DNA from: Salminus brasiliensis
Taxonomy: Eukaryota; Chordata; Actinopteri; Characiformes; Bryconidae
Assembly (NCBI RefSeq): GCF_030463535.1
Contig: NC_132898.1
Coordinates: 23,473,162 to 23,537,161, forward strand
Length of the DNA stretch: 64,000 nt
Direction of reading: 5' to 3'
The translations under genes were made by a program, and so were the position numbers. The notes below the pieces were generated by a model. The model was given only the letters and a program-made list of their open reading frames with translations, had not been told where the DNA came from and did not search any database. Position 1 is the first letter of the stretch. Every line of letters begins with the position of its first letter. Positions 7,720-13,700 of this stretch are shown here, piece by piece.

Positions 7720-10700
7720 ATGGGGGATGGAGAGATGGAGTGTTTTGGGCCAGCGGCCATCTACCTCCGCAAGCCAGAAAGAGAGAGAATTGAAGCTCAA
7801 AACAAACCGTTTGATGCTAAAACAGCCGTCTTCGTTGCTGAGCCTGCTGAGATGTACCTGAAGGGTACACTGAAGAGTAAAGAGGGTGGTAAAGCCACTG
7901 TCGAAACTCTGTGTGGAAAAGTAAGTGAAAAGACAGAAGATGACATTACAGTTCTAGATATCTCATTTTTGGATCTTAGGATCTAGCTTGCAAATATGAT
8001 TTGCAGCCAAGATATAAATGCTAAATACTACTGCAGTAGTATACCCCAGCCTTTATAGTTTTCAAAGTCTGACTGAAAACACATTAAGAATGTAATCATA
8101 ATAAAGCCAAAACAGCAACATTTTAATAACACAATCTTAAAAACAAAGGAAAAAGGAAAGGGATGCTGTTCTATCTCAGCAGATGAATTTAATTATTGAC
8201 ATTTTGTTTGTACAGTCAGCAAACTGTGCTGGAATTTACTCATCTTCCCTTTCCAGACCCTTACAGTTAAGGAGAATGAAATCTTTCCCATGAATCCTCC
8301 CAAATTTGACAAAATTGAGGACATGGCAATGATGACCCATCTCAGTGAACCTTCTGTGCTGTATAACCTCAAAGAGCGTTACGCAGCATGGATGATCTAC
8401 GTAAGTTTAACAAAACATGCCAGAATAAGACATTAGTTAAACCGGAGTTGAACCATAATGACCTTCTGGAAATGGTGCTGTTTACATCTTTAGACCTACT
8501 CAGGGTTGTTCTGCGTTACTGTGAACCCCTACAAGTGGCTCCCAGTGTATGATGCAGTCGTAGTGAATGGCTACAGAGGCAAGAAGAGAGTTGAAGCCCC
8601 ACCCCACATCTTCTCCATCTCTGATAATGCCTATCAGTTCATGCTCACAGGTATGACTGTTTTGATTTAATGAACTAATCAAGTACAAATGCTTCAAGTC
8701 TTAGTTTCACAAATGTGTATAGGTTGTCTCAAACATTTCTGACAATTCCTCTAGATCGTGAAAACCAGTCCATCCTGATTACGTAAGTGCACATTAATAA
8801 GAAGTTTAAATTACAGTGTCTTTTATTTACAACCTTTCAACATGTCAAACATGTAAACAGAGGATTGCTGACATAGTCATTTAATGTTTCTGTAACCTGT
8901 TTATTTCCCCAAGTGGAGAATCCGGGGCAGGAAAGACTGTGAACACTAAACGTGTCATCCAGTACTTTGCAACAATTGCAGTGACTGGACAGAAGAAAAC
9001 AGAGCCTGTTCCTGGCAAAATGCAGGTTAGAAACGATGGAATGGGAATTCTACATGTGTCAGTGAGTAATCAGTACTCAGCCTTTCCTCAAAAACAACTA
9101 TTACGTTGTCTAGGGTTCGCTGGAGGACCAAATTATTGCAGCCAACCCCCTGCTGGAGGCTTATGGTAATGCCAAGACCATCAGGAATGACAACTCCTCT
9201 CGTTTTGTAAGTCCTAACAAACAGTCTTGGAAGTCTTCATATGTTTAATGAAAAAATAATAAATGCTACATAAAACTGAATAAAATCTTTTGGTAAACCA
9301 GGGTAAATTCATCAGAATTCATTTTGGGCAAACTGGCAAACTGGCCTCAGCTGATATTGAAACCTGTAAGTTTCAAATAGTGTGTTCTGTTATGCAGTAT
9401 GAATCACAGTTACAAATACCAAACATTCTGGTAAATCTAAGAATGGACACAAATGTATCAACAGATCTACTGGAAAAGTCAAGAGTCACTTTCCAGCTGT
9501 GTGCTGAGAGGAGCTACCACATCTTCTACCAACTCATGACTGGACACAAACCAGAGCTGCTTGGTATTGAATCTACTTTGTCGGTTGACTACTATGGCTA
9601 TACTCAAAAATTTTAGATCAAATAATTTAACTTTTTATATATTTTTTTTTTCTGCACAGAGGCACTGCTCATCACCACCAACCCCTATGACTACCATATG
9701 ATCAGCCAGGGTGAAGTCACAGTCAAGAGCATCAATGATGTGGAGGAATTTATTGCCACAGATGTAAGCACACTTTCACTCTTAGCAATCTACAGGCAAG
9801 ATATGTCTCATTATCAACGGTCCTTTCACTCTATTTCCCCAAAACTAGACTGCTATTGACATCCTGGGCTTTACTGCTGATGAGAAATTCAACATCTACA
9901 AGCTGACTGGTGCTGTGATGCATCATGGCAACATGAAATTCAAGCAAAAACAGAGAGAGGAGCAGGCTGAGCCTGATGGCACTGAGGGTAAACATCAAGT
10001 CAAGTCAAACATAAAATATTACCACAAAGATTTCACATTCCAGTGCTGTATAGCAGTTTGTAATCATTTACTTTTTCTCTTCAGTGGCTGATAAAATCGC
10101 CTACCTCTTGGGCCTGAACTCTGCTGACATGCTGAAAGCTCTGTGCTACCCCAGAGTGAAGGTTGGAAATGAGTATGTGACCAAAGGCCAGACTGTACCT
10201 CAGGTAATGAGATATTGTGTAACTGACAAAACAAATAAGACTTTGAATTGAAAAAAAAAATCAACACAGGACCATATCATATTTCTGGACTCCACAGGTG
10301 AACAATTCTGTCATGGCTCTGTGCAAATCAGTCTATGAGAAAATGTTCTTGTGGATGGTCGTGCGTATCAATGAGATGTTGGACACAAAGCAGCCAAGGC
10401 AGTTCTTCATTGGTGTGCTGGACATCGCTGGATTTGAGATCTTTGATGTAAGTATTTTTTTACCCTGTTCACTTCACAATGTAAGATTTCTACAATAGAA
10501 CAGTAAGGTAACATCCATATATTCAAACAGTTCAACAGCTTGGAGCAGCTCTGCATTAACTTCACAAATGAGAAACTGCAACAGTTCTTCAACCACCACA
10601 TGTTTGTGCTGGAACAAGAGGAGTACAAGAAAGAGGGAATTGAGTGGGAGTTCATTGACTTTGGTATGGACTTGGCTGCCTGCATTGAGCTGATTGAAAA

Positions 10701-13700
10701 GGTAAGCCACTTAAATTCAATAATCATAATAAACCACTTCATATTTTCACCTCATTCCTACCACTAAAACAATCTGATACCATCAGCCAATGGGCATCTT
10801 CTCCATCCTGGAAGAGGAGTGCATGTTCCCCAAGGCAACAGACACATCCTTCAAGAACAAGCTGTACGACCAGCATATTGGCAAAAGCAGTGCCTTCCAA
10901 AAGCCAAAGCCCACCAAGGGTAAAGCAGAAGCTCACTTCTCTCTGGTGCACTACGCCGGCACTGTGGATTACAACATTTCAGGCTGGTTGGACAAGAACA
11001 AGGACCCCCTGAATGACTCTGCTGTACAGCTGTACCAGAAATCAGCAAACAAACTTCTGTCCCTCTTGTACATTGGTCATGCATCTGGTGACGGTACGCA
11101 AACAAATTCTAAAAAAAATCTAAAATAATTATTTGGATACTAGTGCAAATCAACAGAAAATTACAGTGCTAACTGTAACTTCCCAATGATCATTCATTCT
11201 GATTGTTTATAGATGCTGGTGGCAAAGGTAAGAAGGGTGGCAAAAAGAAGGGTGGTTCCTTCCAGACAGTGTCTGCTCTATTTAGGGTAAGAACAACTTT
11301 ACAAAAACAACTGCAGCATATAATTTGAAAACTACAACAAACTCTAAAATGAATTTTCTGCAGGAGAACTTGGCAAAGCTGATGACTAACTTGAGGAGCA
11401 CTCACCCTCACTTTGTGCGCTGCTTGATTCCAAATGAGTCCAAGACTCCAGGTATGGGTGCTTCTAACTTTAAAAGCATTTTAAATCCTAATGTATTAAT
11501 CTTGATCAAAATATTTTTTAAACTGGTATGTTGCAGATATTGTAACAGTGTACTGACTATTTTAGGTCTGATGGAGAACTTCTTGGTTATCCACCAGCTG
11601 AGGTGTAATGGTGTGCTGGAGGGTATCAGAATCTGCAGAAAGGGATTTCCCAGCAGAATCCTCTATGGTGACTTCAAGCAAAGGTCAATTCATTCACTTT
11701 AGATATTTTCGCATCTATGACGATTCGTTATATAGCTTAATTGTTATATACACTGACTTAGCGGTTTTAATACAGATACAAAGTGTTGAATGCCAGTGTC
11801 ATCCCAGAGGGACAGTTCATTGACAACAAAAAAGCCTCAGAGAAACTCTTGAGCTCTATTGATGTGGATCACACCCAGTACAAGTTTGGGCACACCAAGG
11901 TACACAAAAACTTTTTTTTTTTATCCAAGGCACAACACCTGAAAAGACAGTCTCACTGAAACAAAGTGCAGAATTTGGTGTAGCAAACAGTATTTCCTAG
12001 GTAGCATGGTCCCTTTTGACATTCTATGTAAACAGAATGACTGAGTCATCTGTGCCATATTTGCCAAGATAATCTTTTGCTTAGTCCCTTTAACATCTTT
12101 TTAGATGCAAAATACCTCCGGCCTGCCTTGTAACACATTCACTCACATACTGACTCAAGCAGGCTGAAGATTCTACACAAGGGAGTGTTACTAATAGTCA
12201 AATACCTTTATGTCTTCATGTGAGAATGTATTCTTGTTTAAAATCAGGTATAAGGATAATATATATGTGGCATGATGTTTGATCAATTCTGTAGAGGTAC
12301 ATAAACAACATTTTGTAGTCTTAAATATCATTATCTGTTGGTAGGTGTTCTTCAAAGCTGGTCTACTTGGTACTCTTGAGGAGATGCGAGATGACAAACT
12401 AGCAGTTCTAGTCACTATGACTCAAGCGTTGTGCCGTGGCTTCCTTATGCGGAGGGAGTTTGTCAAGATGATGGAGAGGAGGTATATGTTGGTTCAGACA
12501 ACAAAGCAAAAACACATCATATATGGATTTGCAATAAAGCTAAACTAAAAGAAACTTTTGCCATTTTGAATTGCAGAGAGTCCATCTTTTCCATTCAGTA
12601 CAACATCCGCTCATTCATGAATGTGAAACACTGGCCATGGATGAAGCTGTACTTCAAGATCAAGCCTCTGCTGAAGAGTGCAGAGACAGAGAAAGAAATG
12701 GCTGCCATGAAGGAGAATTATGAGAAAATGAAGGAGGATCTGGCAAAGGCACTGGCCAAGAAGAAAGATCTTGAGGAGAAGATGGTGTCACTTCTTCAGG
12801 AGAAAAATGACCTGCAACTGCAAGTTACATCTGTAAGAATTTAATGTTAAGTTGTAAAACTTTGAAGCATGTTGGATAATGTTCACTGGCACTAAAATCA
12901 TTACATTTACAGGAATCTGAGAACCTCTCAGATGCTGAGGAAAGGTGTGAGGGGCTCATCAAGAGTAAGATCCAGCTGGAAGCAAAACTTAAAGAGACAA
13001 CTGAGAGACTGGAGGACGAGGAGGAAATCAATGCTGAGCTGACCGCCAAGAAGAGGAAACTGGAGGATGAGTGCTCTGAGCTGAAGAAGGATATTGATGA
13101 TCTGGAGCTCACCTTGGCTAAAGTGGAGAAGGAGAAACATGCCACTGAGAACAAGGTTGATGCTTGTCAAAAAAATGAACTTGCATGCACAAAAAAATAA
13201 CCTCTTAGTAACCACATTCAAAGGAACATCCAATGTATAATGTTGAGGTCCAATTGGGCTTACACATTAGCAGGCACTGGCTAAACAAACTAACAAAAAA
13301 CAGACTTGATCACTTGCAGTCTGTTAAGCTAATTAAAGCCAGATGTACATTTTTATTACAAACAAAAAAATTTCAGAAAAATATGTGATATTAATAGCAT
13401 TTGCTGCATTCATGAATTTACAAAGGTGAAGAACTTGACTGAAGAGATGGCCGCTCAAGATGAGAGCATTGCCAAACTCAGTAAAGAGAAGAAAGCTCTC
13501 CAAGAGGCACACCAGCAGACTCTTGACGATCTTCAAGCAGAGGAAGACAAAGTCAATACTCTGACCAAATCAAAAACCAAGCTTGAGCAACAAGTGGATG
13601 ATGTACGTATGTAAAAAATAATCAGTTGAGTATTTAAAATATTGGCAATCATGTTCTTGTGTGGTGTCCTTTACATTTACTGGTCTTCATAAAATTCAGC

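Follow-up and report, generated by a model that had tools for sequence, protein, structure and literature searches.

How can two adjacent introns of one gene be nearly identical to those of two different neighbours, when the other introns of these genes do not align? The question is raised by a window of 64,000 nucleotides from Salminus brasiliensis (RefSeq assembly GCF_030463535.1, contig NC_132898.1, positions 23,473,162 to 23,537,161 of the forward strand), the whole stretch of DNA analysed here, which contains three intact sarcomeric myosin heavy chain (MYH) genes, A, B and C, arranged in tandem on the + strand. An earlier note, made by a model from the letters alone, had described such introns around exon 15 and attributed them to at least two recent, separate gene conversions centred on the exons of the relay region. 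The answer that we hold with high confidence is recurrent ectopic (interlocus) gene conversion among the three genes; on our best reading, conversion was mostly confined to exons, and two tracts each carried an intron along, between different pairs of genes. The gene models, in positions of the window, are as follows.

7720..18078, + strand: myh-A, coding exons 3-40, spliced model of 38 exons, 1931 codons, no stops
25590..37689, + strand: myh-B, coding exons 3-40, spliced model of 1930 codons, no stops
44032..58507, + strand: myh-C, coding exons 3-40, spliced model of 1935 codons, no stops

The exons are numbered 3-41, as in PMC3869912; the short last exon 41 lies outside the models, and the codon counts refer to exons 3-40. 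Exon sizes were picked with human MYH sizes as a guide. Against the conserved structure of 39 coding exons, 38 exons (3-40) could be placed with GT/AG borders in each gene, every modelled intron being GT..AG, and the lengths of 1930-1935 codons, exon 41 excluded, agree with the approximately 1930-1940 residues of an MYH protein. Among the exons scanned, exon 15 of each gene matches the Pfam domain Myosin_head and exon 27 of A matches Myosin_tail_1, and the best PDB matches for exon 15 of A are skeletal myosins. By domain, size and exon structure, A, B and C are vertebrate sarcomeric MYH genes. We take them to be putative fast-type MYH, a label that draws on the names of the best PDB matches, and exon 15 to be the relay region of the motor domain. 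Over all exons, the synonymous difference is 0.404 between A and B, 0.414 between A and C and 0.484 between B and C. The sole modelled exon of unequal length is exon 17, presumably the loop 2 region, with 74 bases in A (11213-11286), 71 in B (31316-31386) and 86 in C (48684-48769); only its last 16 codons entered the alignment.

The introns that raise the question flank exon 15.

10448..10530, + strand: intron 14 of A, near-identical to intron 14 of B and unrelated to that of C
30430..30514, + strand: intron 14 of B, common to A
47893..47992, + strand: intron 14 of C, unrelated to A and B
10702..10786, + strand: intron 15 of A, unrelated to B and C
30686..30788, + strand: intron 15 of B, common to C
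48164..48263, + strand: intron 15 of C, common to B

Intron 14 of A and B has a gapped identity of 0.96, with one substitution and a change in the length of a T run (83 versus 85 bases); for B and C, intron 15 has 0.95, with two substitutions and one 3-base indel (103 versus 100 bases). The remaining 107 of the 109 same-position comparisons scored in this way (of 111; two comparisons of intron 39 were excluded) do not exceed 0.66. The null distribution, from introns of mismatched index (446 pairs kept of 600 drawn, 154 being skipped for length), has a mean of 0.531, a standard deviation of 0.066 and a maximum of 0.705. Local alignment, with splice ends trimmed, shuffled controls and long introns cut to 600 bases, singles out the same two of 111 comparisons, at z of about 50 (scores of 139 and 161, null maxima of 23 and 29); the next highest values are 5.8 for intron 4 of A and B, a 14-base exact match, and 3.7 for intron 16 of A and B. 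Intron 14 of C reaches only z 2.2 and 2.3 against A and B by local alignment, and for intron 15 of A the gapped identity to B and C (0.58 and 0.57) is no higher than background. The earlier note had thus placed introns 14 of A and B and 15 of B and C correctly, and its description of the switch of partner, of the unrelated third intron in each case and of the absence of alignment elsewhere holds: equal intron similarity throughout the genes is not seen. The two introns at z of about 50 strongly support its view of gene conversion with partner switching in at least two events. That intron 14 or 15 holds a conserved RNA element was considered and rejected, since no Rfam family matched them at its gathering score (the whole window has one such match, elsewhere).

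Between and around these introns lies a block in which all three genes are alike.

10361..10864, + strand: three-way low-divergence core in A, from base 63 of exon 14 to base 77 of exon 16 (both counted from 0), by alignment, hidden Markov model (HMM) and change points
10531..10701, + strand: exon 15 of A (motor domain), with 1-2 differences in 171 bases among the genes
30515..30685, + strand: exon 15 of B, by pairwise base comparison
47993..48163, + strand: exon 15 of C, by pairwise base comparison

The 57 residues encoded by exon 15 are invariant among the genes. The exon differs at 2 of 171 bases between A and B and at one each between A and C and between B and C, the one or two bases that had been claimed for it. 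Its synonymous differences number 2/28, 1/28 and 1/28, respectively (binomial P 9.9e-5, 6.7e-6 and 2.5e-7; these per-exon values take sites as independent and are uncorrected for 38 exons). The near-identity goes beyond exon 15 on both sides. In exon 14 it covers the 3' half, where C from base 63 differs from A at 1 and from B at 2 of 87 bases; in exon 16 it covers the initial 78 bases, where A differs from B at one base and from C at none. Without introns, the core thus has 2/336 differences between A and C and 4/336 in each of the other pairs; A and C have by a small margin the most alike core exons, yet neither intron 14 nor intron 15 is common to them. In the HMM the core has 4/104 differing informative codons for A/B, 2/104 for A/C and 4/110 for B/C, and its ends are nearly equal in all pairs (10364-10859 in A; 30331 or 30346 to 30861 or 30870 in B; 47794 or 47809 to 48336 or 48345 in C), and change points fall inside exon 14 (permutation P 0.034) and exon 16 (0/1000). 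Six pair-by-intron combinations are enclosed by this block, and two of them were exchanged. The contiguous exchanged stretches, which run in A/B from base 63 of exon 14 through intron 14 and the whole of exon 15 (4/341 bases) and in B/C from exon 15 through intron 15 as far as base 77 of exon 16 (4/349), both differ by about 1.2%, compared with a synonymous difference of 40-48% between the genes. Judged by these divergences, the exchanges are recent relative to the gene duplications, in relative age only.

The exon most strongly homogenised is exon 27, in the rod, ahead of exon 15.

14146..14535, + strand: exon 27 of A (rod), homogenised with B and C and flanked by unrelated introns, by silent-site counts, HMM and change point
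33675..34064, + strand: exon 27 of B, homogenised, by silent-site counts
51128..51517, + strand: exon 27 of C, homogenised, by silent-site counts

Synonymous differences in this exon of 390 bases number 1/83 between A and B, 3/83 between A and C and 2/82 between B and C (binomial P 1.3e-17, 2.0e-15 and 8.3e-21). Only six of its sites are variable, four of them within the last 41 bases (change point P 0.001), and the introns on both sides are unrelated among the three genes. The A/B tract of the HMM reaches into the last codons of exon 26, and the intron 26 that it encloses is not common to A and B (0.61). A search for relatives by exon 27 of A alone in viral and genome contig collections gave 80 and 560 pattern matches, none of which was confirmed.

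Two further segments were found.

12577..13155, + strand: exons 22-23 of A, A/B low-divergence segments, by a GENECONV-like segment and two HMM tracts
16083..16481, + strand: exons 33-34 of A, A/C lower-divergence segment, by a GENECONV-like segment, weaker

The GENECONV-like test used 645 silent polymorphic codons and 5000 permutations. It found an A/B segment in exons 22-23 (A 12599-12967, 35 sites) and an A/C segment in exons 33-34 (A 16083-16455, 44 sites), neither of them equalled in any permutation (0/5000 for each). For the former, the HMM gives one A/B tract in each exon, with 3/65 and 2/44 informative codons differing, and intron 22 between the tracts is not common to A and B (0.65, within the null). 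Exon 34 has a synonymous difference of 0.29 between A and C, and the A/C segment is probably older, as far as divergence can tell. The claim that the events were centred on the relay-region exons is not supported, as exon 27 is the most homogenised and exons 22-23 and 33-34 also give significant segments; the stronger homogenisation of exon 27 is also why relay-specific selection was rejected as the sole driver.

Overall, short blocks (the core of exons 14-16, exon 27, parts of exons 22-23 and, more weakly, exons 33-34) are much closer between the genes than their surroundings. Local identity of the paralogues is far above that of the flanks and has sharp ends, as expected of interlocus conversion, and the segments are incongruent, with intron 14 and exons 22-23 pairing A with B, intron 15 pairing B with C and exons 33-34 pairing A with C. 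The two-state HMM is ahead of a one-state model by 196 log units, a comparison fitted on the same data and not a formal test, and its low-divergence state covers 952 codons, compared with at most 199 in 100 permutations. Weak tracts were not relied on, namely exon 16 for each pair (mean posteriors 0.82, 0.76 and 0.79) and exons 23 (0.70), 34 (0.67) and 35 (0.57) for A/C. Longer exons tend to have a lower minimum of silent divergence between gene pairs (Spearman -0.46, P 0.004; without exon 27, -0.41, P 0.012), which fits longer homology favouring conversion; exon 15, with 171 bases, is an exception to this trend.

As a mechanism, broken or gapped DNA in one MYH gene would be repaired from a neighbouring gene, with the conserved exons serving as the homology for repair; non-homologous introns would mostly keep the version of the recipient and would have been replaced in two cases. 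Exons 14-16 require at least two events, or about four if every tract was contiguous, and exon 27 likewise requires no fewer than two.

Some observations weigh against this reading. The comparison covers three paralogues of one assembly, and gives neither direction nor date of conversion. The GENECONV-like test has no significant segment for B/C (2260/5000 permutations), and the B/C segments were accordingly discarded; it also fails to pick exons 15 and 27. Blocks that are identical in all three genes are invisible to such a test, which explains the latter failure. Evidence for conversion in these exons comes from runs of degenerate codons identical in A, B and C, which reach 58 and 52 codons in exon 27 and 44, 18 and 17 in exons 14-16, the longest such run in 5000 permutations being 28. 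In exon 34 the HMM marks only 15 codons for A/C, with a weak mean posterior of 0.67. The G+C content of third codon positions (GC3) is not raised in exon 27 (0.51-0.52, versus 0.51-0.56 gene-wide). It is raised in exon 15 (0.68-0.70) and exon 16 (0.63-0.65), a mixed picture for GC-biased conversion, which was not retained as a general signature. Finally, codon bias could contribute to the low synonymous difference of exon 15.

Within gene conversion, the form of the tracts at exons 14-16 can be read in more than one way. Since the 3' half of exon 14 of C and the 5' end of exon 16 of A are homogenised beside unexchanged introns, either additional exon-confined tracts or discontinuous tracts are needed. 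Tentatively, and with somewhat less than even chances, two discontinuous tracts of about 0.5 kb ran from the 3' part of exon 14 to the 5' part of exon 16, and the two unrelated introns were repaired separately in a single heteroduplex, with one of them being replaced and the other retained. The nearly equal ends of the HMM core in all pairs and the exchange of two of the six enclosed combinations are what such tracts would leave; four shorter contiguous or exon-confined tracts yield the same picture, and three sequences without an outgroup cannot separate the two. It is conceivable, then, if still the lesser possibility, that several exons are rewritten by a single tract of roughly 0.5 kb, and that every unrelated intron of about 80-100 bases inside it is retained or replaced independently of the others. 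If so, the array would homogenise its coding sequence while its introns diverge, and the trace would be the introns that B has from different partners.

A simpler scheme, close to the one first proposed, has two contiguous conversions centred on the relay region, one of A/B from exon 14 across intron 14 into exon 15 and one of B/C from exon 15 across intron 15 into exon 16. It accounts for both common introns and for exon 15; it leaves out exon 14 of C from base 63 and, in exon 16 of A, the initial 78 bases, both homogenised beyond unexchanged introns, as well as the stronger homogenisation of exon 27, and we consider it unlikely. Of the proposal of two separate events, the minimum of two stands, and the sufficiency of two contiguous tracts does not.

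Less probable still is that constraint on synonymous sites or codon bias, rather than conversion, lies behind the likeness of exons 15 and 27. Exon 15, with its invariant residues, ranks second of 38 exons for preferred codons, so part of its likeness is possibly due to codon bias. This does not extend to exon 27, which is average in GC3 and ranks 18th of 38. Nor does constraint explain why intron 14 is alike in A/B only and intron 15 in B/C only, or why the breaks in similarity fall inside exons, and exons 15 and 27 have no Rfam family at gathering score. An assembly artefact, in which the stretch of exons 14-16 of B was filled with reads of A and C, is just as improbable: misjoins are possible precisely at near-identical exons, but the common introns differ by 1/83 and 2/100 bases plus indels, the private exon substitutions of the core (one in A, one in C and three in B, at base 116 of exon 14, base 104 of exon 15 and base 56 of exon 16, counted from 0) speak against B as a misassembled copy of A and C, and a filled gap in B accounts neither for the likeness of exon 27 across the three genes nor for the segments found in exons 22-23 and 33-34.

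Recurrent conversion among the three genes also has relatives in the literature; the process is known, and the MYH array is a new and clear instance of it. Going by its title, Moore et al. 1992 (J Mol Biol, cited in PMC6558913) concerns gene conversion among skeletal myosin genes, as here; compared with that title, the present case is a tandem array with partner switching at the level of introns. A 2025 preprint on the threespine stickleback MYH3C cluster, likewise a tandem fish fast MYH array, offers two explanations for the grouping of copies within species, one of them being extensive gene conversion (PMC12776057). Its subject is the duplication of whole copies and the change of copy number, whereas the copies here are well diverged, at a synonymous difference of 0.4-0.5, and the converted blocks are short. 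The mammalian pairs BMP8A/B, DDX19A/B and TUBG1/2 are described in PMC2720389 as mosaic concerted evolution, with some exons concerted and others divergent within one gene, as in this array. The criterion by which those pairs had been chosen was a shared intron lying between two similar exons, in contrast to the mostly unexchanged introns found here, and in the MYH array only some of the converted exons have raised GC3. In human sperm, as reported in PMC6485458, length heterology alters the structure of meiotic recombination tracts, and mismatch and large-loop repair are discussed; by analogy, we infer that a similar effect may act on the introns of the MYH array. The partner-switching intron pattern in MYH arrays was not found among the literature matches listed, in which subscription papers are thinly covered, and we make no claim of a first report.

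The pattern has practical consequences. In arrays of this kind, a myosin tree based on complete coding sequences would combine histories that differ from one exon to the next. Both exchanged introns are largely neutral sequence inside the tracts, and could be used to date and polarise conversion against sister species. The skipping of heterologous introns during conversion is directly testable at this locus.

Other features of the window were also recorded. Between A and B, the region 20029-21402 has the relic of a fourth myosin gene, which matches exons 33 and 37-40 in part and has an in-frame stop where it matches exon 40; within this region, positions 21324-21402 resemble the 3' end of A, and a UnaL2-type 3' element of a long interspersed nuclear element lies at 21264-21317 (Rfam RF00436, 58.7 bits). 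Intron 6 of B contains a segment of about 1.46 kb (26485-27943) with terminal inverted repeats of about 165 bases that are 87% alike, and looks like a putative DNA transposon insertion. Intron 39 has 3,213 bases in C, compared with 159 in A and 245 in B, and that of C contains a tandem array of short repeats at 57143-57553. Finally, an inverted pair of dispersed repeats, 79% alike, is found at 828-1038 and 22117-22322, the latter copy lying beside or overlapping a TG/CA-type run.

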